From a virus: a stretch of DNA of 26,440 nt. The stretch covers positions 1 to 26,440 of IMG/VR virus record IMGVR_UViG_3300032116_001144. One strand, written 5' to 3'. A program made the position numbers and the translations under genes. This document shows positions 2-10,671 of the stretch, in pieces. The notes beneath the pieces were generated by a model. It ran no database searches. It was given only the letters and a program-made list of their open reading frames with translations, and had not been told where the DNA came from. Position 1 is the first letter of the stretch. Each line of letters begins with the position of its first letter.

Positions 2-358
2 GAGCAGTTTTCGCGGCGCGGAACCCTGTCGGACGCGCAGGTCTCCGCTCTGGTCCGCATCCGCGAGCAGGACGCCGAGCGCGCCGCGAAGGGGACCGAT
101 AGCCAGCATGTCGGCGTCGTCGGCGATCGTCATAGGCTCGTCCTCCGCGTCCGCCTCGTCCGCTCGTTTGAGAGCGCGTTTGGGATCATCTGGCTCCACG
201 TCTGCGAGGACGAGGGCGGCAACGTCGTCGTCTACAAGGGCAGCAAAGAACTGGCCGCGCGCGGAGAGACGGTCACCGTGATCGCGACCGTGGCCGAGCA
301 TGGTGAGCGCGAGGGCGTGAAGCAGACCATCATCAAGAGGCCAAAGATCGTCGCTTGA
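2..358 (+). CDS. Hypothetical phage protein, C-terminal part (cut by window edge)
   Basis: The frame is open from the left edge to a TGA at 356-358, giving 118 residues with no start in view. The first ~35 residues are charged and helical (LSDAQVSALVRIREQDAERA). From about residue 37 a compact beta-rich module follows, with the segments GIIWLHVCEDEGGNVVVYKG and ETVTVIATVAEHGEREGVKQ and a basic end (IIKRPKIVA). This pattern of alternating strands ending in a TVTVxAxVxEH-like strand resembles small domains seen at the end of many phage hypothetical proteins, possibly an OB-like fold; that is inference. No catalytic motif is visible. The TGA stop lies inside the -35 box of the next gene's promoter. 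Function unknown. Confidence 0.7.
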   Translation, partial: EQFSRRGTLSDAQVSALVRIREQDAERAAKGTDSQHVGVVGDRHRLVLRVRLVRSFESAFGIIWLHVCEDEGGNVVVYKGSKELAARGETVTVIATVAEHGEREGVKQTIIKRPKIVA

Positions 359-396
359 CGTGCCCTGTGGGCAGGGGTACGCTCCTGCCCACTACC
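355..396 (+). promoter_or_regulatory. Promoter with embedded TGCCC-N3-GGGCA operator, copy 1
   Basis: TTGACG (355-360), a 17-base spacer and TACGCT (378-383) make a sigma70-like promoter with a weak -10. The spacer begins with the dyad TGCCC-TGT-GGGCA (361-373), and a third half-site TGCCC lies at 386-390, so GGGCAGG and CCTGCCC flank the -10 as a 9-bp inverted repeat (367-375 with 384-392). It ends in CTACC. The same arrangement occurs on the minus strand at 4751-4710 (32 of 42 positions identical) and in shorter form at 5093-5057. The expected transcript starts near 391 and leads to the gene at 419. Repressor or activator binding is inference. Confidence 0.6.
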
Positions 397-418
397 ACTT
401 CATCTAAAGGAGATTGAT

Positions 419-679
419 ATGTCGAATTGGAGCTGCAAGAAAACGAAGCGCGTGAGCGTCTACAAGGTCGCAATGTGCGACGCCTTCAAGCTCGGCATTG
501 CAGACTATCGTGCCGGTCATCCGTTTCGCGATATCAATAATGAAAAGGATGCGGTCAACTATGAGCGCGGGCGCCACTTCGCCGCGCTCTACGCCGGTCG
601 CATCTATCAGGGGCGCGGACTGAACTGGTGGGCGAAGTCGGCACTTGATAGCGCGGTACATGCCAAGTGGGTCTTCTGA
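419..679 (+). CDS. Hypothetical 86-residue phage protein, single-gene unit
   Basis: The start is well supported: AAAGGAG at 406-412 sits six bases before the ATG. The protein is basic in its first third (KKTKRVSVYK), and its middle reads FKLGIADYRAGHPFRDINN followed by NYERGRHFAALYAGRIYQGR. The DYRAGxPF…YERGRxFAxLYAGR pattern looks like a small phage family that I recognise only as hypothetical. There is no membrane segment or signal peptide. It has its own promoter/operator (355-396) and is closed by a strong hairpin terminator (701-726), so it is probably transcribed alone. It shares its operator with the leftward replication unit, which suggests timing with early genes. Function unknown. 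Confidence 0.75.
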   Translation: MSNWSCKKTKRVSVYKVAMCDAFKLGIADYRAGHPFRDINNEKDAVNYERGRHFAALYAGRIYQGRGLNWWAKSALDSAVHAKWVF

Positions 680-700
680 TACAAAACAGAGATTGAATGG

Positions 701-726
701 AAGAGGGGCCGAAAGGCCCCTTTTCT
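701..726. terminator. Bidirectional rho-independent terminator
   Basis: GGGGCC (705-710) pairs with GGCCCC (715-720) around a GAAA tetraloop, extended by A-rich/T-rich flanks (AAGA at 701-704, TTTTCT at 721-726). On the plus strand the stem is followed by TTTTCTATTT; on the minus strand the reverse complement gives TCTT after the stem. It lies between two convergent genes (419-679 and 725-1645) and serves both; the leftward gene's stop codon is immediately next to it. Confidence 0.85.
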
Positions 727-1645
727 ATTTCTGGGCCAGAAGGACATCGTTGAAGTCCGTCCCCGGCGCATCCGGGACAAATACCGTCGCGCGCTTTCCC
801 GACGCGACGATCCTCTGAGCCAGCCTGTATGCCGCAGCCTGCCCGGCATAGCTGCGGTCGTTATCCGCGAATATCGCGATCTCCTCCGCCTCCGCAGGCG
901 CTTCCCATTTCGCCAGCATCGCAGCGGACAGGCAGGCCCACACCGGCATTTTGTAAATGATCGCTGCCGACATCGCGGTTTCTATTCCTTCCGCTACACC
1001 CATGACATTTCGAGCGGGCCAAAGGCGAACAGCAGATCCATCCGGGATCTTGCCCGCTGCGAGGCGGCGACAGGGATCGACATCGGCCTTCCGCCCGTCA
1101 GGCGACAGGTAGGTCATATGCAGGCTAACTCCCGCCCCATCCGGGCCAGAGATTCGGGCGACCATGGCGGGGTAGGCCCGGTCGGTCTCGGGATGGTGCA
1201 GCGAGGGGTGATGGCGGATCGCTGAGGAGGGCCAGAAACGCCCGAGACGGGTCGAGAGGTAGGTAGAGGTGGGCGAGCCTGCTTCCGGCGCTGTAGCCCC
1301 CCTCCAGACGCGAAGGAGAGCGTGTCTGTCGGGACTGGTCACCCTGCCGCCGCCGATCCGGGGCGGCGGAGCGTCCCTGAGCAGGTTCCTGACCTCGTCG
1401 GCAAGGGTCGCGAACGGCTTGCCGGTCACAGCCCCCGCCAGCATGAACCCGTCCCCCGCCCCGCAGGCCGAGCAGATGTAACCTCCGGTCGAGTTCTGAT
1501 CGTCCCAGCGGTAGCGGTCAGTTCCGCCGCACATCGGGCAGGGGCCGTGCTTCCGGTTCAGGGCTGTCGCTGGCACGCCGAGCTTGGGCAGGAGATATTC
1601 CCAATGCCCGCGAGCGGCTTCCTTGATCGGGATATTATCACGCAC
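725..1645 (-). CDS. DNA primase, zinc ribbon plus TOPRIM domain
   Basis: Likely the phage primase making RNA primers, in the style of the P4/T7 zinc-binding-TOPRIM primases but without a fused helicase. A four-cysteine zinc ribbon is visible at the N terminus: CPMCGGTDRYRW (C36, C39) and CSACG (C58, C61). The TOPRIM core follows at about residues 213-300, with GVAEGIETAMSA carrying the conserved glutamate E219 and IFADND carrying D261 and D263. At 306 residues it is the size of stand-alone phage primases. The start ATG lies inside the end of the helicase gene (8-base overlap), so the two are probably co-translated. It is the last gene of the leftward unit, next to the terminator at 701-726. 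The primase-type assignment is firm; its exact priming behaviour is inferred. Confidence 0.9.
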   Translation of the reverse strand: MRDNIPIKEAARGHWEYLLPKLGVPATALNRKHGPCPMCGGTDRYRWDDQNSTGGYICSACGAGDGFMLAGAVTGKPFATLADEVRNLLRDAPPPRIGGGRVTSPDRHALLRVWRGATAPEAGSPTSTYLSTRLGRFWPSSAIRHHPSLHHPETDRAYPAMVARISGPDGAGVSLHMTYLSPDGRKADVDPCRRLAAGKIPDGSAVRLWPARNVMGVAEGIETAMSAAIIYKMPVWACLSAAMLAKWEAPAEAEEIAIFADNDRSYAGQAAAYRLAQRIVASGKRATVFVPDAPGTDFNDVLLAQK

Positions 1646-3119
1646 GCCGCTGCCTCCTCTGGCTGCGCGCCCAAGCGATATTCCGGTGCGTGATCCACGA
1701 TTGCGTCGTCGGGGAGATCTCGTCCGCCAAATCCTTCCTCAATTCGTATGGGGGCCAGTTTCCAAACTTGTCCTTGTAGGTCACCGCTGCCCAGCCGGGT
1801 TTGTATCCGCGCAGATGAGCGTGGAGCAAAAGCTCCGAATAGAATTGCTGCTTCTGGACCAGCGTCGAATACATCGAATCCGCGATGACCGTCTTACGAG
1901 CGGTAAGCTCGACCAGATCGCCGGTCATTTCCTCGACATCGGTCTTGGGCTTCTTTTCAAAACCGCACGATGGGCAGGTCTTGGTTTTCGGCGGCATCAG
2001 AAACGCGCACGACGGGCATTCCTTTGGCAGGGGCTTCGCATCCCGAGGACGAGCAGGGCCGCTCTTGTTTCCGTCGTCCAGAAGCTCGTGATGGATATCG
2101 GTAACGAAACCGAGCCGCACGGTCGTGTCGGAATGATCGAGGATCAGGCAATGGTTCTTGTCGCTCGCAGGACGCAGGCCACGACCGATCATTTGGACGT
2201 AGAGCATTTCGCTCTTGGTCGGGCGAGCGAGGATGATGCAGCGAACGTCAGCGTCGAAGCCCGTCGTGAGAACACCGACGTTGCACAGGATGCGAGTATC
2301 CCCGCCAGAGAAACGCTTCACGATCTGCGCGCGCTCCTCCATCGGCGTGAATGCATCCATGTATTCGGCAGCGACGCCCGCCTCGACAAAACGGTCGCAG
2401 ATATTTTTCGCGTGGAGCCGATCCACCGCGAACGCAACGGTCGGACGATCCTCGCCGCGCTGAAGCCAAGTCGAAACGATATCCGCGACCAGAGCGCCAC
2501 GCTGCATCGCTTCGCTCAGTCCCTTCAAATCGAAATCACCGGCAATCGTCTTGACGCCGCTCAGGTCGGGATGCGCCGGGGCATAGCACTTGAACGCAGA
2601 CAGGTGACCAAGCTCGATCAGTTCGCTCGTCGTCGTCGCGATGATCAGATCATCCCAAACCAGACCCATGCCTTTTGCCCATGGCGTCGCGGACAGTCCG
2701 ACGAACGGGATATCCTTCCAGTTCTCGCGTCCCATCCACTCGATCAGGAATTTGAATTGAACGTGGCACTCGTCCACGATCACCATATCGACGGTCGGAG
2801 AGTTTCTCCGCGCCAAGGTTTGAATCGAGCAAACCTGTACCGGCATATTCGGGTCGGTCATTTCATGGTTCGACTGCATGACGCCGATTTCCCAAATGCC
2901 ATTCGATTCAAACCGGGCGACGGTCTGGTCGATAAGCGTCAGGGACGGGACGACGAAGGCCACCCGCTTATTCTTTTCCCGAGCCGAGCGAATGAGCGAA
3001 GCGGCAATAACCGTCTTGCCCGCGCCGGTCGGAAGAGCCATCACGATGCGCTTCTTGTTGTTCTGTAGACTTTCACGAAGTCTAACAATTGCATCTGTTT
3101 GATATGATCTTAGTTGCAT
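1638..3119 (-). CDS. SF2 DEAD/DEAH-type helicase with C-terminal zinc ribbon
   Basis: An ATP-driven DNA helicase of the type III restriction subunit/UvsW-like superfamily 2 group, probably the phage replication or recombination helicase. The 493-residue product begins MQLRSYQTDA, with the Q-like motif RSYQ. Walker A is ALPTGAGKT (about 28-36), Walker B is VDECH (115-119), motif III is GLSATP (141-146) and motif VI is QMIGRGLRP (309-317). A CPSC…CPSC zinc ribbon (C368, C371, C382, C385) follows. I chose ATG 3119, which has AGGA eight bases upstream; an in-frame TTG at 3143 would add eight residues but has no clear ribosome site. There is no nuclease or methylase partner, which argues against a restriction system. 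Directly upstream is an unusual pyrimidine mirror repeat. Confidence 0.9.
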   Translation of the reverse strand: MQLRSYQTDAIVRLRESLQNNKKRIVMALPTGAGKTVIAASLIRSAREKNKRVAFVVPSLTLIDQTVARFESNGIWEIGVMQSNHEMTDPNMPVQVCSIQTLARRNSPTVDMVIVDECHVQFKFLIEWMGRENWKDIPFVGLSATPWAKGMGLVWDDLIIATTTSELIELGHLSAFKCYAPAHPDLSGVKTIAGDFDLKGLSEAMQRGALVADIVSTWLQRGEDRPTVAFAVDRLHAKNICDRFVEAGVAAEYMDAFTPMEERAQIVKRFSGGDTRILCNVGVLTTGFDADVRCIILARPTKSEMLYVQMIGRGLRPASDKNHCLILDHSDTTVRLGFVTDIHHELLDDGNKSGPARPRDAKPLPKECPSCAFLMPPKTKTCPSCGFEKKPKTDVEEMTGDLVELTARKTVIADSMYSTLVQKQQFYSELLLHAHLRGYKPGWAAVTYKDKFGNWPPYELRKDLADEISPTTQSWITHRNIAWARSQRRQRRA

Positions 3120-3234
3120 GACTACATTCCTACAAAGTTGCAAAGTTATCGCGCGGGGATAGTACAGGTGTTTCAGGATAGAGTGCTACAATGTGTTTTG
3201 ATTCCTTGGCGGGGATTCACCAGATCATTTGAAA

Positions 3235-3286
3235 CCCCCCCTCTCCCCCTTCCCCCCTATAGTCCCCCCTTCCCCCTCTCCCCCCC
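3235..3286. repeat. Perfect homopyrimidine/homopurine mirror repeat
   Basis: The plus strand reads C7-TCT-C5-TT-C6, then TATAGT, then C6-TT-C5-TCT-C7. The two 23-base arms (3235-3257 and 3264-3286) are exact mirror images with a six-base centre. Such sequences are the classical substrate for intramolecular triplex (H-DNA). The minus strand has six runs of five to seven guanines, which could also form a G-quadruplex in DNA or in the leftward transcript. The stop codon of the gene at 3257-3538 sits in the centre, and the helicase start is about 115 bases downstream. Function unknown; replication start, pausing or attenuation are possibilities. Confidence 0.9.
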
Positions 3287-3538
3287 TAACATTGGACTTG
3301 GGCGATTGTGCGGTGCAGCATGGTCAGATTGCTGCGGTGCAACATCGCCTCGATGGGCCAGCATCAGGTCGAGGAGACGGACGGCAGACAGGGGTATCGA
3401 CCGCTCGCCCGAAAGCCACTTGTACAACGTACGGTCGTGGACCCCGAGCGCGGCAGCAGCCTCCCGGTCGAGCAGGTTTAGCCTCCAGAGCCGGGCGCGG
3501 AACTCCTCTCGCGCGACCTCGCCAGCGACATATGCCAT
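3257..3538 (-). CDS. Small helix-turn-helix DNA-binding protein
   Basis: Ninety-three residues. The segment LDREAAAALGVHDRTLYKWLSGERSIPLSAVRLLDLML (residues 22-59) has the spacing of a Cro/XRE-type helix-turn-helix: helix, turn at LGVHD, recognition helix RTLYKWLSGE. A basic, disordered tail follows and runs into the guanine-rich mirror repeat, so that the last residues are GGERGKGGL. The ATG overlaps the previous stop by one base (TAATG), with GGAG eight bases upstream, so translation is coupled. It is the last small gene before the helicase. Probably a phage transcription regulator, perhaps acting on a promoter in this region; its target is not evident. The low-complexity tail may only reflect the DNA element beneath it. 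Confidence 0.75.
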   Translation of the reverse strand: MAYVAGEVAREEFRARLWRLNLLDREAAAALGVHDRTLYKWLSGERSIPLSAVRLLDLMLAHRGDVAPQQSDHAAPHNRPSPMLGGERGKGGL

Positions 3539-3801
3539 TACTGATTCTCCTCGTGCAGGAAGTTAATCGCCAATTGTTTGGAGTTGGTATTTATGCGCTG
3601 CCCTCGGATCGTCCGGGCTAGATATTCGCCGGGCCGGATGCGGGTTATCCAGCCGAGCGGTCGATTATCAAGATAGATCGTCGTGATGTCGTCCTCCTGC
3701 TCAATACGGGTGGACGGTTCGATCCGTTTGATCTGACGCGGGCGAGGCGCGTCGAGGACGACGCCGCACATATCCGCTATGTGGCGGGGAAGATCGGTCA
3801 C
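3538..3801 (-). CDS. Hypothetical 87-residue phage protein
   Basis: The start is a GTG at 3801 inside a GTGA overlap with the stop of the preceding mini-gene, so translation is coupled. The N terminus MTDLPRHIADMCGVVLDAPRPRQIKRI is followed by a strand-rich part (ITTIYLDNRPLGWITRI, EYLARTIRGQ) and an asparagine-containing C terminus. No known motif, membrane segment or metal site is visible. The pattern of a short polar N terminus plus a small beta domain is compatible with a DNA-mimic or accessory protein, but nothing identifies a function. It is kept because it is exactly packed between two coupled neighbours in the leftward unit. Confidence 0.65.
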   Translation of the reverse strand: MTDLPRHIADMCGVVLDAPRPRQIKRIEPSTRIEQEDDITTIYLDNRPLGWITRIRPGEYLARTIRGQRINTNSKQLAINFLHEENQ

Positions 3802-3899
3802 CAGTAAATCTCCATCAAGATATTGATCACGATAAACGCCCAGCCAGCGACGATCGCCAGCACGACGAGGATCAGGTCAATCCGTTCCGCGCGGCTCAT
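3798..3899 (-). CDS. 33-residue single-pass membrane mini-protein
   Basis: Begins MSRAERID, then a continuous hydrophobic stretch (LILVVLAIVAGWAFIVINIL, residues 9-28) ending MEIYW. This is one complete membrane helix with basic residues on the N-terminal side. ATG 3899 overlaps the upstream stop as ATGA and its TGA overlaps the next start as GTGA, so it sits exactly in a chain of coupled genes. A 93-residue reading that starts further upstream in the same frame is arginine-rich and runs through the neighbouring gene, so I use the short form. Role unknown; small phage membrane proteins often affect host membrane functions, superinfection or lysis timing. Confidence 0.6.
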   Translation of the reverse strand: MSRAERIDLILVVLAIVAGWAFIVINILMEIYW

Positions 3900-4123
3900 T
3901 CTCCGTCCTCCTTCGCCTGCGCGACGCGGATCGCCTCGACCAGAGCGATGCGGTCGTCGGTCACATCGATTTTGATGAACGTGAGCGGGGCGGCTCCGCC
4001 GCCGATCAGCACAACGATGATCGGATACAGGCTGCGCGCCCTCCACGCCTGCGCGATGTCCGCAGCCGCGTGCGGGCAAGTGGTCGTGTGATAGTGGTCG
4101 AGGTCGCCGGTGATGTGGATCAT
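3896..4123 (-). CDS. Hypothetical 75-residue phage protein
   Basis: Begins MIHITGDLDHYHTTTCPH and continues with a central hydrophobic strand region (YPIIVVLIGGGAAPLTFIKIDV) and an amphipathic helix (RIALVEAIRVAQAKEDGE). The early His/Cys cluster (HITGDLDHYHTTTCPH) could hold a metal, but there is no second cysteine pair to complete a standard finger. The IIVVLIGGGA stretch is too short and Gly-rich to call a membrane helix with confidence. It starts three bases after the previous stop and overlaps the next gene by four. No family recognised. Confidence 0.65.
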   Translation of the reverse strand: MIHITGDLDHYHTTTCPHAAADIAQAWRARSLYPIIVVLIGGGAAPLTFIKIDVTDDRIALVEAIRVAQAKEDGE

Positions 4124-4126
4124 CGG

Positions 4127-4459
4127 TCAGCCCTTCTCCTCGATCAGGGCGACGCAGCAGCGCAGCAGCGACGAGAGAAGCTCGGCCTCGCTCAGGCTGT
4201 GGTCCTCCTGATGCCGCAGAAGGGCGGCGGCGAACTCCGGCACCTCGCGCTCGATGCGCTTGAGGACCGGATGTCCGAAGCCCTTCTCCTCGACCGCGAG
4301 CATGACGCAGCCAGCCATGAAGTCGGCGTGGCTCATCGGCGGCACGTTGCCGCGACCGTACTGGCTGGCGTCGATCCAGCGGACGGTTTTGCCGACCGCG
4401 TGGACCGCCGCCCAGTCGCGGGCGTGGGACGGGTGGATGATCTTGTAGGTGGTCTTCAT
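4127..4459 (-). CDS. Hypothetical 110-residue phage protein
   Basis: A mixed protein beginning MKTTYKIIHPSHARDWAAVHAVGKTVRWIDASQ, followed by two helical segments (SHADFMAGCVMLAVEEKG; VPEFAAALLRHQEDHSLSEAELLSSLLRCCVALIEEKG). The C-terminal ~45 residues look like a helical hairpin. There is no catalytic motif; the adjacent cysteines near the end (LLRCCVAL) are not in a known metal pattern. Its ATG overlaps the previous gene's stop as ATGA, so it is co-translated in the leftward unit. I do not recognise the family. Confidence 0.65.
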   Translation of the reverse strand: MKTTYKIIHPSHARDWAAVHAVGKTVRWIDASQYGRGNVPPMSHADFMAGCVMLAVEEKGFGHPVLKRIEREVPEFAAALLRHQEDHSLSEAELLSSLLRCCVALIEEKG

Positions 4460-4665
4460 GGCGTGACTTCCTTTCGAGATAGTGCTTCGAGACGCTGGAC
4501 AGCTTCCTCCGCCGTCATCGTTCCGGCGGAGACCTTGTCCATGATGGCGTAGAGTTCAGGGGTCGCGGCGCGCCTGCGCTCGTGGCGAGCGGCCTCTTCG
4601 CGCGGGTCAGGGGCGACGGTGTTGGACTTGCGCCAGCGCGCGACGGTCCTGTTCGGGTTTGCCAT
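4456..4665 (-). CDS. Hypothetical 69-residue basic phage protein
   Basis: The first half is strongly basic and polar (MANPNRTVARWRKSN, then REEAARHERRRAATPE). The second half is a predicted two-helix unit, LYAIMDKVSAGTMTAEEAVQRLEALSRKE. The NRTVARWRKSNTV opening resembles the end of a helix-turn-helix recognition segment but is too short to claim one. It is the first gene after the operator-bearing promoter at 4751-4710, with an AGGA ribosome site about seven bases before the ATG. Being first in line after an operator makes a regulatory role plausible, which is inference only. Confidence 0.65.
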   Translation of the reverse strand: MANPNRTVARWRKSNTVAPDPREEAARHERRRAATPELYAIMDKVSAGTMTAEEAVQRLEALSRKEVTP

Positions 4666-4709
4666 TTCGGGTTCCTTTCCGGTTCAGAAATTGGTCGGGA
4701 CGTACCGGA

Positions 4710-4751
4710 GGTAGCGGGCAGGATGTTATTCCTGCCCGCCGGGCAGATCAA
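4710..4751 (-). promoter_or_regulatory. Promoter with embedded TGCCC-N3-GGGCA operator, copy 2
   Basis: Read on the minus strand: TTGATC (4751-4746), a 17-base spacer opening with TGCCC-GGC-GGGCA (4745-4733), TAACAT (4728-4723), then CCTGCCC and GCTACC. This matches the plus-strand copy at 355-396 at 32 of 42 positions with no gap. GCGGGCAGGA (4714-4723) and its complement (4730-4739) form a 10-bp dyad around the -10. The -35 overlaps the TGA stop of the gene at 4748-5017, just as copy 1 overlaps its upstream stop. It is a hairpin in sequence but lacks a following T run, so it is not a typical terminator. It would drive the gene at 4456-4665 and those after it. Confidence 0.65.
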
Positions 4752-5017
4752 ACCGCGACGACGACGCGGGGCTTGATGCGGATCGTCTCGACCTGCGTCG
4801 TGCGGGTGCAGGCCGCGACCTGCTCCGTGGTCAGGTACTGCGCCGCCGCCTTGGCGTCGAAGCTCTTACGCTCGCTCAGGCTCAGGGTGACGAGGACATG
4901 CGTCCCCTCGATCACCTCGCGCCCGAGAGCGCGGATCTCGCCCTTGACGAGATCAAGCTCCGCATTGATGCGGTCGGACTCGGCCTTGAGGATCGCGTAC
5001 TTGTCAGCGAGGTTCAT
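4748..5017 (-). CDS. Hypothetical 89-residue coiled-coil phage protein
   Basis: From MNLADKYAILKAESDRINAE onward the N-terminal ~40 residues form an amphipathic helix, probably a coiled coil. A beta/helical part follows with VLVTLSLSERKSFDAKAAAQYLTTEQVAACTRTTQ. The REVIEGxxVxVTLSLSERxxxDxKAA pattern is one I associate with a widespread family of uncharacterised phage proteins located near replication genes. I chose ATG 5017 because GGAG lies six bases upstream; ATGs at 5029 and 5047 would add four and ten residues. The promoter with the third operator copy lies directly upstream. Function unknown. Confidence 0.7.
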   Translation of the reverse strand: MNLADKYAILKAESDRINAELDLVKGEIRALGREVIEGTHVLVTLSLSERKSFDAKAAAQYLTTEQVAACTRTTQVETIRIKPRVVVAV

Positions 5018-5056
5018 CTCAATCTCCATCTGTATCCCGATCACCACAACGATGTC

Positions 5057-5093
5057 GGTAGGCGCATCATACGGATGCCCAGCGGGCAGTCAA
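5057..5093 (-). promoter_or_regulatory. Strong sigma70-like promoter with operator, copy 3
   Basis: On the minus strand TTGACT (5093-5088), a 16-base spacer and TATGAT (5071-5066) each match five of six consensus bases. The dyad TGCCC-GCT-GGGCA (5088-5076) starts with the last base of the -35 box and fills most of the spacer, so a bound protein would block or realign RNA polymerase. The element ends in CTACC like copies 1 and 2, but is four bases shorter and lacks the third TGCCC half-site. It lies between the RusA stop (5133) and the start at 5017, so it can transcribe the rest of the leftward unit independently of the regulator/RusA pair. Confidence 0.7.
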
Positions 5094-5132: not shown

Positions 5133-5489
5133 TTAGCCAATCGACACCAAGGTCACTTCGCATGATCGACCCGCGCCGCGCCAGCAGAGATGGATCTCCT
5201 CCGCATCGCAATCGTCCGCTAGAACCCCGGCATCCACCAGCGCATCGCTCAAGGCCTTGAGCAGGTTGTCGAGGTCGCGGCGACGCTTGTCCGGTCGCTG
5301 GAACGCAACAGCGATGCTGTATCGCCCGTCAATGCTTGCCCCGCGAGCTTGCAGCTTGATCGACCAGATCGCCTCGTTACGCCACGCGCTGTACTCCGCG
5401 CTGCGGTACATTCGCCCCTTGCCGCTCCTCCACAGCCGATTGACGCTAGGCGGCAGCGGCAGCGTGAGACGGATCGTCTCAATCGGCAT
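5133..5489 (-). CDS. rusA: RusA-family Holliday junction resolvase
   Basis: A dimeric, metal-dependent endonuclease that cuts four-way DNA junctions, used by phages to clear recombination and replication branches before packaging. At 118 residues it has the usual family length (E. coli RusA is 120). The N-terminal signature LTLPLPPSVNRLWR is present. The catalytic aspartates are visible in RRRDLDNLLKALSDALVDAG (D72, D74), and LADD (D92/D93) matches the third acidic residue; in E. coli RusA these are D70, D72 and D91. The ATG lies 11 bases inside the upstream regulator gene, so the pair is coupled. It complements the exonuclease and ERF protein encoded on the opposite arm. Confidence 0.93.
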   Translation of the reverse strand: MPIETIRLTLPLPPSVNRLWRSGKGRMYRSAEYSAWRNEAIWSIKLQARGASIDGRYSIAVAFQRPDKRRRDLDNLLKALSDALVDAGVLADDCDAEEIHLCWRGAGRSCEVTLVSIG

Positions 5490-5685
5490 ACAGGTCCGGT
5501 CGCAGCCGCGCGCGCGGGATCGAGGTCAATTCCTCGACGCGACGCAGATGCCGCAGCGGTACGCGACGCCAATGGCAAACCGCAGCCCGGCTGATGCCGA
5601 GCCGCCGGGCTAGCTCAGATTGCGAGCCAAGGGCCATAAGAGCGTCAAGGAGGGCCGGATCGCGGCGGAGGTAGGTGCGAGACAT
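5479..5685 (-). CDS. Cro/YdaS-like DNA-binding protein
   Basis: Sixty-eight residues. ALMALGSQSELARRLGISRAAVCHWRRVPLRHLRRVEELT is a complete helix-turn-helix of the Cro/YdaS superfamily: SQSELARRLG (first helix), then ISRAAVCHWRR (recognition helix). The tail SIPRARLRPDLYAD matches the common end of YdaS-like regulators (xLRPDLY). It is the first gene of the leftward unit and faces the recombination unit across the control region 5686-5801, the classical position for a Cro-type switch protein. The upstream Shine-Dalgarno is weak. A possible target is the dyad at 5710-5747; that is inference. Overlap with rusA is 11 bases. Confidence 0.85.
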   Translation of the reverse strand: MSRTYLRRDPALLDALMALGSQSELARRLGISRAAVCHWRRVPLRHLRRVEELTSIPRARLRPDLYAD

Positions 5686-5801
5686 GGCGACGATCTAGCA
5701 GCTTTTTTGTGCGCGTTGAAGTAGGTGTTGACAGGACTAAACGCGCAGGCTAAACGACTTCCTGCCGGGTTCTTCCGGTCACTTGAAATGGAGATCGATC
5801 A
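5686..5801. promoter_or_regulatory. Divergent control region with candidate rightward promoter and dyad operator
   Basis: This 116-base gap separates the leftward and rightward early units. A perfect TTGACA lies at 5728-5733, with TAAACG (5751-5756) 17 bases on as a weak -10 for the rightward genes. The TTGACA is flanked by an 8-bp inverted repeat, TGCGCGTT (5710-5717) and AACGCGCA (5740-5747). CTAAACG is repeated directly at 5737-5743 and 5750-5756, 13 bases apart. A T6 run is at 5703-5708. No convincing leftward promoter is seen, and the TGCCC-N3-GGGCA operator is absent, so this region is probably under a different regulator, the adjacent Cro-like protein being the first candidate. Confidence 0.5.
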
Positions 5802-9826: not shown

Positions 9827-10190
9827 AGCCGTCGTTGCAAACGTCGTCGCTAGGGTGGCGCACCGAGAACTCGGGCCTGAGTGGGTGCCAACTGCCCTAG
9901 CGATTGCGAATAAGGAATCGAAGCTGCGTTGCGATGCCTCTGGCAGGGGCAAGGCTCTAGGGATCTTTCAGGTGGTCCCCATCGCAGCGAAGCATCTTGG
10001 CTACGATCACAAGAGGATTAAGGAAGACTGCGTCTACGGCATCGAGGCTGGCATCGCCCATATGGTTGCCTGCCTCAAATCTGCCAACGGCAAAATGACC
10101 GCAAGGCAGATGAAAGCTTGTCATGTACATGGAATCAATGGATGGAGAATGCGTTATGGATATGCTTCCTTTGGGAACCCTTCGTCGTGA
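9756..10190 (+). CDS. Secreted lytic transglycosylase (SLT-type)
   Basis: Cleaves peptidoglycan glycan strands. The N terminus MMMRSLPILIIATILFGCPAGAG is a signal peptide, and LFGC could be a lipoprotein signal. The lysozyme-like domain follows with ALAIANKESKLRCDA, where E54 is the expected catalytic acid, and then GRGKALGIFQVVPIAAKHLGY, the usual G-x-FQ-P site; the end reads GIEAGIAHMVACLKSANG. Size is 144 residues. AAGG lies six bases before ATG 9756; other ATGs are 9750, 9759 and 9762. It overlaps the previous gene by 71 bases. An exported transglycosylase at the end of an early recombination unit is unusual; it may locally remodel the wall. Its Cys pair (C92, C106) could form a disulfide. 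Confidence 0.85.
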   Translation: MMMRSLPILIIATILFGCPAGAGEAVVANVVARVAHRELGPEWVPTALAIANKESKLRCDASGRGKALGIFQVVPIAAKHLGYDHKRIKEDCVYGIEAGIAHMVACLKSANGKMTARQMKACHVHGINGWRMRYGYASFGNPSS

Positions 10191-10671
10191 ATTGACAGAG
10201 AGAGACAAGCTGGTCCTGTCTCTCTGGAAGAAAGGTCTTACAGGCTCTCAGATCGGAGAGAAGATTGGCACGACCAGAAGCGCGATCCTTGGCCTGATCA
10301 ACAGGCTCAGGGCTGCTGGCTACGTCGAGTACCGCGCCAAGAATCCAAGGCCCAAGAAGGACACTCCTCCCAAGCCTAGGAAGGCTCCAGAAAAGAAGCT
10401 TGACCAGTTTGAGCGTCTGATGTCCTTCGCGCCTCCGCTCATCCCTGAGCCTGTGCAGGAGCCAAGCAAGCCCCTCACGATCATGGAACTGACGCGCCGG
10501 TCTTGCCGGTACATCCTGAACGAAGGCAAGCCGTCCTCTTTCCTGTTCTGCGGGAAAACGACGGACAAGGGATCTTACTGCCTAGAGCATCACAAGGTTT
10601 GCTTCACCAAGATCGCGAAGTCTAGCAAGCCGTTCATGATGAACAACAAGCTCACTTCATCAATAAGGTAG
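10156..10671 (+). CDS. GcrA-like cell-cycle transcription regulator
   Basis: GcrA of Caulobacter and relatives binds sigma70-RNA polymerase and activates promoters containing methylated GANTC. The N-terminal domain is visible as LTERDKLVLSLWKKGLTGSQIGEKIGTTRSAILGLINRLRAAG (residues 13-55). A proline/lysine linker (PRPKKDTPPKPRKAPEKK) leads to the C-terminal part LTIMELTRRSCRYILNEGKPSSFLFCGKTTDKGSYCLEHH, matching GcrA's L-x-x-L-T-x-x-(T/S)CRxP…FCG…YCxxH (C117, C132, C142, H146). The CRYIL here replaces the usual CRWPI/P. ATG 10156 has GGAG eight bases upstream; 10123 would add 11 residues. It overlaps the transglycosylase by 35 bases and ends 3 bases from the convergent late unit. It likely redirects host or phage transcription. 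Confidence 0.9.
   Translation: MDMLPLGTLRRELTERDKLVLSLWKKGLTGSQIGEKIGTTRSAILGLINRLRAAGYVEYRAKNPRPKKDTPPKPRKAPEKKLDQFERLMSFAPPLIPEPVQEPSKPLTIMELTRRSCRYILNEGKPSSFLFCGKTTDKGSYCLEHHKVCFTKIAKSSKPFMMNNKLTSSIR

Follow-up and report, generated by a model that had tools for sequence, protein, structure and literature searches.

A promoter-embedded operator repeated in related aquatic phages and its candidate Aca/Cro-like regulator

The Cro proteins of the lambdoid phages and the Cro protein of P22 (YdaS, PF15943, PF14549) are small helix-turn-helix (HTH) proteins that repress early promoters during lytic growth. Here we describe a promoter/operator module, a dyad (TGCCC-N3-GGGCA) set in the spacer of a sigma-70-like promoter, which occurs three times in IMG/VR record IMGVR_UViG_3300032116_001144, a phage fragment that we analyzed over its whole length of 26,440 bases (the window). 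On the evidence of sequence comparison, the three sites are probably copies of one promoter/operator that is shut off by an autoregulated Aca/Cro-like repressor, the HTH_3 protein encoded at 3257-3538. The arrangement differs from that of Cro in that the HTH protein favored here sits in the replication operon and not divergent to it, and the Cro-like protein that the window phage also encodes is, by co-occurrence, the wrong candidate.

In the published Aca families, the operon that encodes the Aca protein has an inverted repeat in its core promoter, and all of the families tested repress it (PMC9410906). The likeness of the present system to Aca1, Aca2 and Aca10 lies in a small HTH protein (60-90 amino acids) encoded in the operon that it would regulate and in a strong early promoter with an inverted repeat set in its core (PMC9410906, PMC9410881); the operon of the HTH gene does carry such a repeat within its core promoter. 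There are three differences: the HTH gene lies before a helicase gene, whereas Aca genes come last in an acr operon; one HTH protein appears to serve several dispersed promoters; and the dyad is unlike the published Aca1 and Aca2 sites. No acr gene was recognised here, and Pfam/PHROG-type annotation gave no known function for the operon neighbors of the HTH gene or for ten module-driven genes. By analogy, the HTH protein may act as Aca and Cro repressors do, through sites that are dispersed as in L5-type phages.

In the cluster A mycobacteriophages L5 and Bxb1, a repressor has many sites throughout the genome, and the site motif and the repressor change together between phages (PMC6550527). 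The likeness would be that of one phage repressor with many identical sites, although here there are several sites per contig and the reader of the sites is deduced from covariation. The L5 sites are 13 bp long, number 20-30, lie mostly outside promoters and maintain lysogeny, whereas the sites described here are symmetric, fewer and always in promoters. No match to the tyrosine-family integrases (PF00589) was found in the 18 records searched, all of them fragments, including contigs of 39, 42 and 45 kb (other integrase families were not searched), and a role in the maintenance of lysogeny is therefore without support here.

Three module sites in the window

A first-pass annotation, made from the sequence alone, had reported three promoter-like sites, each with the dyad in its spacer and CTACC past the -10 box, and direct inspection verified all of them:

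355-383, plus strand: module copy 1, with -35 TTGACG at 355-360, dyad TGCCCTGTGGGCA at 361-373, a 17-base spacer and -10 TACGCT at 378-383.
4723-4751, minus strand: module copy 2, TTGATC-N17-TAACAT, with the dyad at 4733-4745; second, internal promoter of the leftward operon.
5066-5093, minus strand: module copy 3, TTGACT-N16-TATGAT, with the dyad at 5076-5088; promoter of the leftward operon.

Copies 1 and 2 are identical at 32 of 42 positions by direct count, as reported. The exact dyad occurs only these three times in the 26,440 bases, in each case inside a promoter-like spacer straight after TTGA, and a control search of the window with the same pattern read backwards gave no match. In 2000 dinucleotide-preserving shuffles the dyad occurred on average 0.05 times and the dyad linked to TTGA (TTGA-N1/2-dyad, three in the window) on average 0.001 times, and no shuffle reached three of either. 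A scan for the sigma-70 consensus picks up copy 3 alone among the modules (10 of 12 positions matching). In two of the three copies, the TGA within the -35 TTGA is also the stop codon of an upstream open reading frame (ORF): in copy 1 (-35 at 355-360) it is the stop of an ORF that ends at 358, and in copy 2 (-35 at 4751-4746) it is that of the gene at 4748-5047. Such doubling is seen in 22 of 62 module copies overall.

Conservation of the module in related phages

A pattern scan of IMG/VR with TTGA-N1/2-dyad-N4-TANNNT yielded 11 contigs, mostly relatives, and homology searches with the genes at 4748-5047 and 419-679 yielded relatives that all carry the module, often with 3-5 modules per contig. 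From these sources and from loci found later, we pooled 62 distinct module sequences from related aquatic phage contigs. TTGAC stands one base ahead of the dyad in 58 of the 62, and in these 58 modules of standard offset TTGAC is nearly invariant and each dyad base carries 1.6-2.0 bits, with the positions past the dyad being weak. The spacer is 17 bases long in 34 modules, 16 in 22 and 18 in 6, and in 60 of 62 there is a start codon, accompanied by a ribosome-binding-like sequence, 35-80 bases downstream. The third TGCCC half-site that had been seen 12 bases past the GGGCA in copies 1 and 2 did not hold up as a general part of the module, being present in just 9 of the 62 copies (6 others, those with an 18-base spacer, have it at 13 bases), and on these counts it was dropped; the CTACC past the -10 box is a trait of close relatives only. 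The idea of a phage regulon under one DNA-binding protein is backed by this comparison, related phages having between one and six module promoters per contig.

The regular geometry bears on the possibility that the dyads are RNA hairpins, terminators, or partition or origin sites. They are short inverted repeats, and terminators of the form GGGGC-N4-GCCCC are also present in some intergenic regions. However, the dyad lies upstream of the expected transcription start, is only five pairs long and has no T run, and its distance and orientation relative to TTGAC and to the downstream start codon are fixed in 58-60 of the 62 copies. We rejected the terminator or hairpin reading on the position of the dyad and regard this group of explanations as exceedingly improbable.

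We also considered whether the phage borrows a host regulon, with the dyad being the site of a host transcription factor, given that the promoters are sigma-70-like and that the genome collection may not include the true host. However, the module pattern has 40 matches in the 257 Gb of bacterial and archaeal genomes, scattered over unrelated phyla, against approximately 30 expected by chance for 17 fixed bases (simple arithmetic). The number being near chance, the module is no common host regulon. Two matches on a single Rhodobacteraceae contig (L055 and L057) proved to be unrelated sequences, and the rest are chance-like singletons. Furthermore, within the phage family the operator changes along with a phage gene, and we consider a host regulon highly improbable.

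The module is not private to the window phage but is widespread among related phages. A near-identity search of the INPHARED phages gave no match, MW202675 and MW202879, the named phages that come closest by a structural protein, are without the module, and a search of the literature for the motif strings returned unrelated papers only. In a more distant phage (locus L075, IMGVR_UViG_3300033076_000273, 15336), a single module at 3336-3348 lies within the structural gene region, before a 73-amino-acid ORF; no HTH or YdaS homologue was found on that contig.

The HTH protein as candidate reader of the dyad

The first-pass annotation had left the regulator open between a protein encoded outside the window and two encoded within it:

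3257-3538, minus strand: HTH_3 protein of 93 amino acids, recognition helix GVHDRTLYKWL; proposed regulator of all module copies.
5479-5685, minus strand: YdaS/P22-Cro-like protein of 68 amino acids (Pfam YdaS, E 6e-12); a candidate regulator that was rejected.

Co-occurrence, helix covariation and operon position favor the former and disfavor the latter. Homologues of the two were searched separately in IMG/VR without use of module information, and both have homologues in larger relatives. The module is present in 12 of the 14 new loci found with the HTH protein, and the two that lack a TTGAC-linked module extend just 277 and 518 bases beyond the HTH gene on its upstream side. In every locus with an A-type HTH protein (see below) that reaches more than approximately 600 bases upstream, a module lies 0.2-1.6 kb ahead of the HTH gene and on its strand, which places the HTH gene in a module-driven unit, ahead of the helicase. 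The alternative that the YdaS protein reads the dyad is suggested by its being a Cro-type HTH protein that adjoins the early region and by its presence in all of the larger close relatives. Yet 62 loci (691 kb) with a YdaS homologue but without an HTH homologue contain no exact dyad, the YdaS helices vary widely among phages that share the same dyad, a near-identical helix (SRAALCHWQ) is found in the module-free locus L103, and the gene lies outside the module-driven units. The module does not follow YdaS wherever it occurs, and we rejected this protein as very unlikely to be the regulator. The HTH_3 protein is the most likely regulator of the module copies.

Further discrimination came from sister phages with a different operator. 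We call the dyad TGCCC-N3-GGGCA operator A. In all phages that carry it, the recognition helix has the form G[VI][HQ][DEN]RT[LIM]YKW, and the HTH homologues of module-free loci have GCNQTTFYRW, GVNPRTFYRW, GCNPRTLFRW, GVNERTLYRW, GVSDRTLYRW or GIKERLFYKW. The promoter spacers of the group with NP or NQ helices contain a second operator, B (TGGCA-N3-TGCCA), which has the same 5-N3-5 layout, differs from A at positions 3 and 5 of the half-site, and lies in front of the orthologue of the first operon gene. Locus L107 has four exact copies, others are in L101 and L105, and copies with one mismatch are in L102 and L108; the helix in the phages with operator B is GxN..T..RW, with F or Y before the RW. 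Across the family, 13 lineages with the A-class helix have TGCCC-N3-GGGCA and 7 other lineages do not, without exception (Fisher 1e-5, kinship ignored). A blind scan for operator B gave 20 loci, of which 3 belong to this phage family; 2 of these were already known and the new one, L188, encodes the helix GVNPRTLFRW and lacks operator A. Most of the other loci encode no member of the HTH family and represent chance matches or other systems. Loss of the dyad with retention of the genes had been named beforehand as an outcome that would speak against a regulon. The loss does occur, in the sister phages, but there a dyad of the same geometry has taken its place together with a changed helix, and the regulon idea is therefore strengthened. 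We concluded that the operator and the putative DNA-reading helix of its regulator have changed together in the sister phages.

Two further loci, L110 (13202-13260) and L103 (4660-4717), have other, less clear dyads directly upstream of HTH homologues (GIKERLFYKW and GVSDRTLYRW, respectively), which are possibly further operator types. L193 has at 1228-1249 a site resembling a promoter, TTGAC-TGGCATTATGCCA, and a weak relative of the HTH family (helix GVHIRTI) is encoded on the same contig; this may be an unrelated system.

One gene, of 120 amino acids, is shared at 86% DNA identity by L088 (12387-12781) and L107 (12009-12404). The homology starts immediately upstream of the ATG and extends into the terminator, and the promoters are unrelated, with operator A in L088 and operator B in L107, in each case the type that matches the phage's own candidate regulator. 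T4-type early-promoter/stem-loop (PeSL) cassettes are reportedly promoter units that travel with small genes. The exchange resembles these in spanning the ATG region to the terminator but differs in that the gene moved without its promoter and in that the promoter carries a putative repressor site.

The predicted structure of the HTH protein is in keeping with a repressor. Its AlphaFold model has a confident four-helix core (predicted local distance difference test score, >94), and the Foldseek neighbors, namely, Aca10 (template modeling score, 0.83 by target; 1.8 Å), Aca2 (1.1-1.2 Å), Aca1, HigA2, MqsA and C.Kpn2I, are autorepressors or antitoxins. A sequence-profile search had Aca1 as its top match (E 0.001), and an NCBIfam search found no Aca family at E 0.1.

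The same HTH protein could instead be an activator, or a middle-gene switch acting with host polymerase. Weak -10 boxes are common among the modules, and the dyad is fixed one base past the -35 box, as a factor that touches polymerase might need. However, the -35 box is near consensus and the spacer is of normal length, a dimer within the spacer would block polymerase, and the solved structural neighbors of the fold are repressors. Moreover, operator A touches the -35 box and operator B lies several bases further on, against the -10 box, a shift that occlusion would tolerate and a fixed activator contact would not. The moving position of the dyad therefore suits occlusion better than activation, and we consider activation unlikely.

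Several observations weigh against a repressed regulon under the HTH protein. Most modules match the -10 consensus at only 3-4 of 6 positions, which is compatible with activation. The Foldseek E-values exceed 0.02, the protein being small. The invariant dyad alone cannot tell which protein reads it, and three of the YdaS loci without an HTH homologue have one mismatch-containing dyad match each. Finally, a tree of the first operon gene groups together the four B phages that have this gene (80/81), such that the change between A and B may have been a single evolutionary event; the Fisher value therefore overstates independence.

Proposed circuit, neighboring genes and significance

The sequences themselves show the sites, how these are placed and conserved, where the HTH gene lies in the operon, and the covariation of operator and helix. 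For the circuit that they suggest, we infer the binding of the HTH protein, its dimer formation, repression and timing. Host sigma-70 polymerase would use a strong -35 box (TTGACA/C) with a 16-18 base spacer, of which the first 13 bases past the -35 box are the operator. A dimer of the HTH_3 protein would bind the dyad, occlude the spacer and block polymerase. Made from the leftward operon (copies 3 and 2), the protein would repress its own operon, including helicase and primase, and dispersed single-gene units such as 419-679. From the self-repression of published Aca families through a core-promoter repeat, together with the Aca-like fold, we infer an early burst that would be followed by a self-limited shut-off through negative feedback. 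The rightward recombination promoter would escape repression. The features involved are as follows:

419-679, plus strand: gene for 86 amino acids under copy 1, with its start codon 58 bases past the start of the dyad.
725-1645, minus strand: Toprim/zinc-ribbon primase, in the module-driven operon.
1638-3143, minus strand: ResIII/DEAD helicase, in the module-driven operon.
3538-3801, minus strand: conserved operon gene for 87 amino acids, directly before the HTH gene.
4748-5047, minus strand: "LADKY" family gene (approximately 90-99 amino acids), first gene of the leftward operon, with a weak match to the RecE-like PHROG 434.
5728-5756, plus strand: TTGACA-N17-TAAACG, resembling a rightward promoter, with the YdaS gene on one side and the recombination genes on the other.

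The protein of 419-679 has no match to a Pfam or PHROG family, and a relative at 94% identity is likewise preceded by the module. Orthologues of 4748-5047 stand behind operator A or operator B in all of the related phages in which they were found, and a homologue of 3538-3801 lies immediately behind operator B in L105 and L107. The rightward promoter carries no dyad of the module type, as the first-pass annotation had also noted, and is conserved in relatives, likewise without the module. In close relatives it has conserved CTAAACGC-type repeats, which are possibly the site of the YdaS/Cro-like protein. At 3230-3295, where the HTH gene ends and ahead of the helicase, the window has a long C-rich tract that is homopurine on the coding strand; relatives likewise have a Gly/Arg-rich tail there. 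The window also encodes a homologue of the cell cycle regulator GcrA (10123-10671, plus strand; Pfam E 7e-21), found in four relatives as well, which suggests an alphaproteobacterial host.

As a tentative and wider possibility, these probably alphaproteobacterial, podovirus-like phages may have recruited an Aca-type autorepressor as the master switch for an early regulon with dispersed sites, with operator and helix diverging together between sister lineages and jumping genes taking up the local operator. If this is true, the module is a tag for fast-changing early genes, some of which may be antidefense genes. In practice, the module can serve as a search tag that leads to short early genes of unknown function, among which counterdefense genes are sought. 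An uncultured phage lineage gains a regulon with a named candidate regulator. The gene shared by L088 and L107 is a natural experiment: a gene that moves between phages retains its own coding sequence but comes under the operator that goes with its new candidate regulator. Taken together, the two operators and their helix types would amount to natural two-state specificity in a very small HTH protein, TGCCC being paired with H/Q..K helices and TGGCA with N..R helices.

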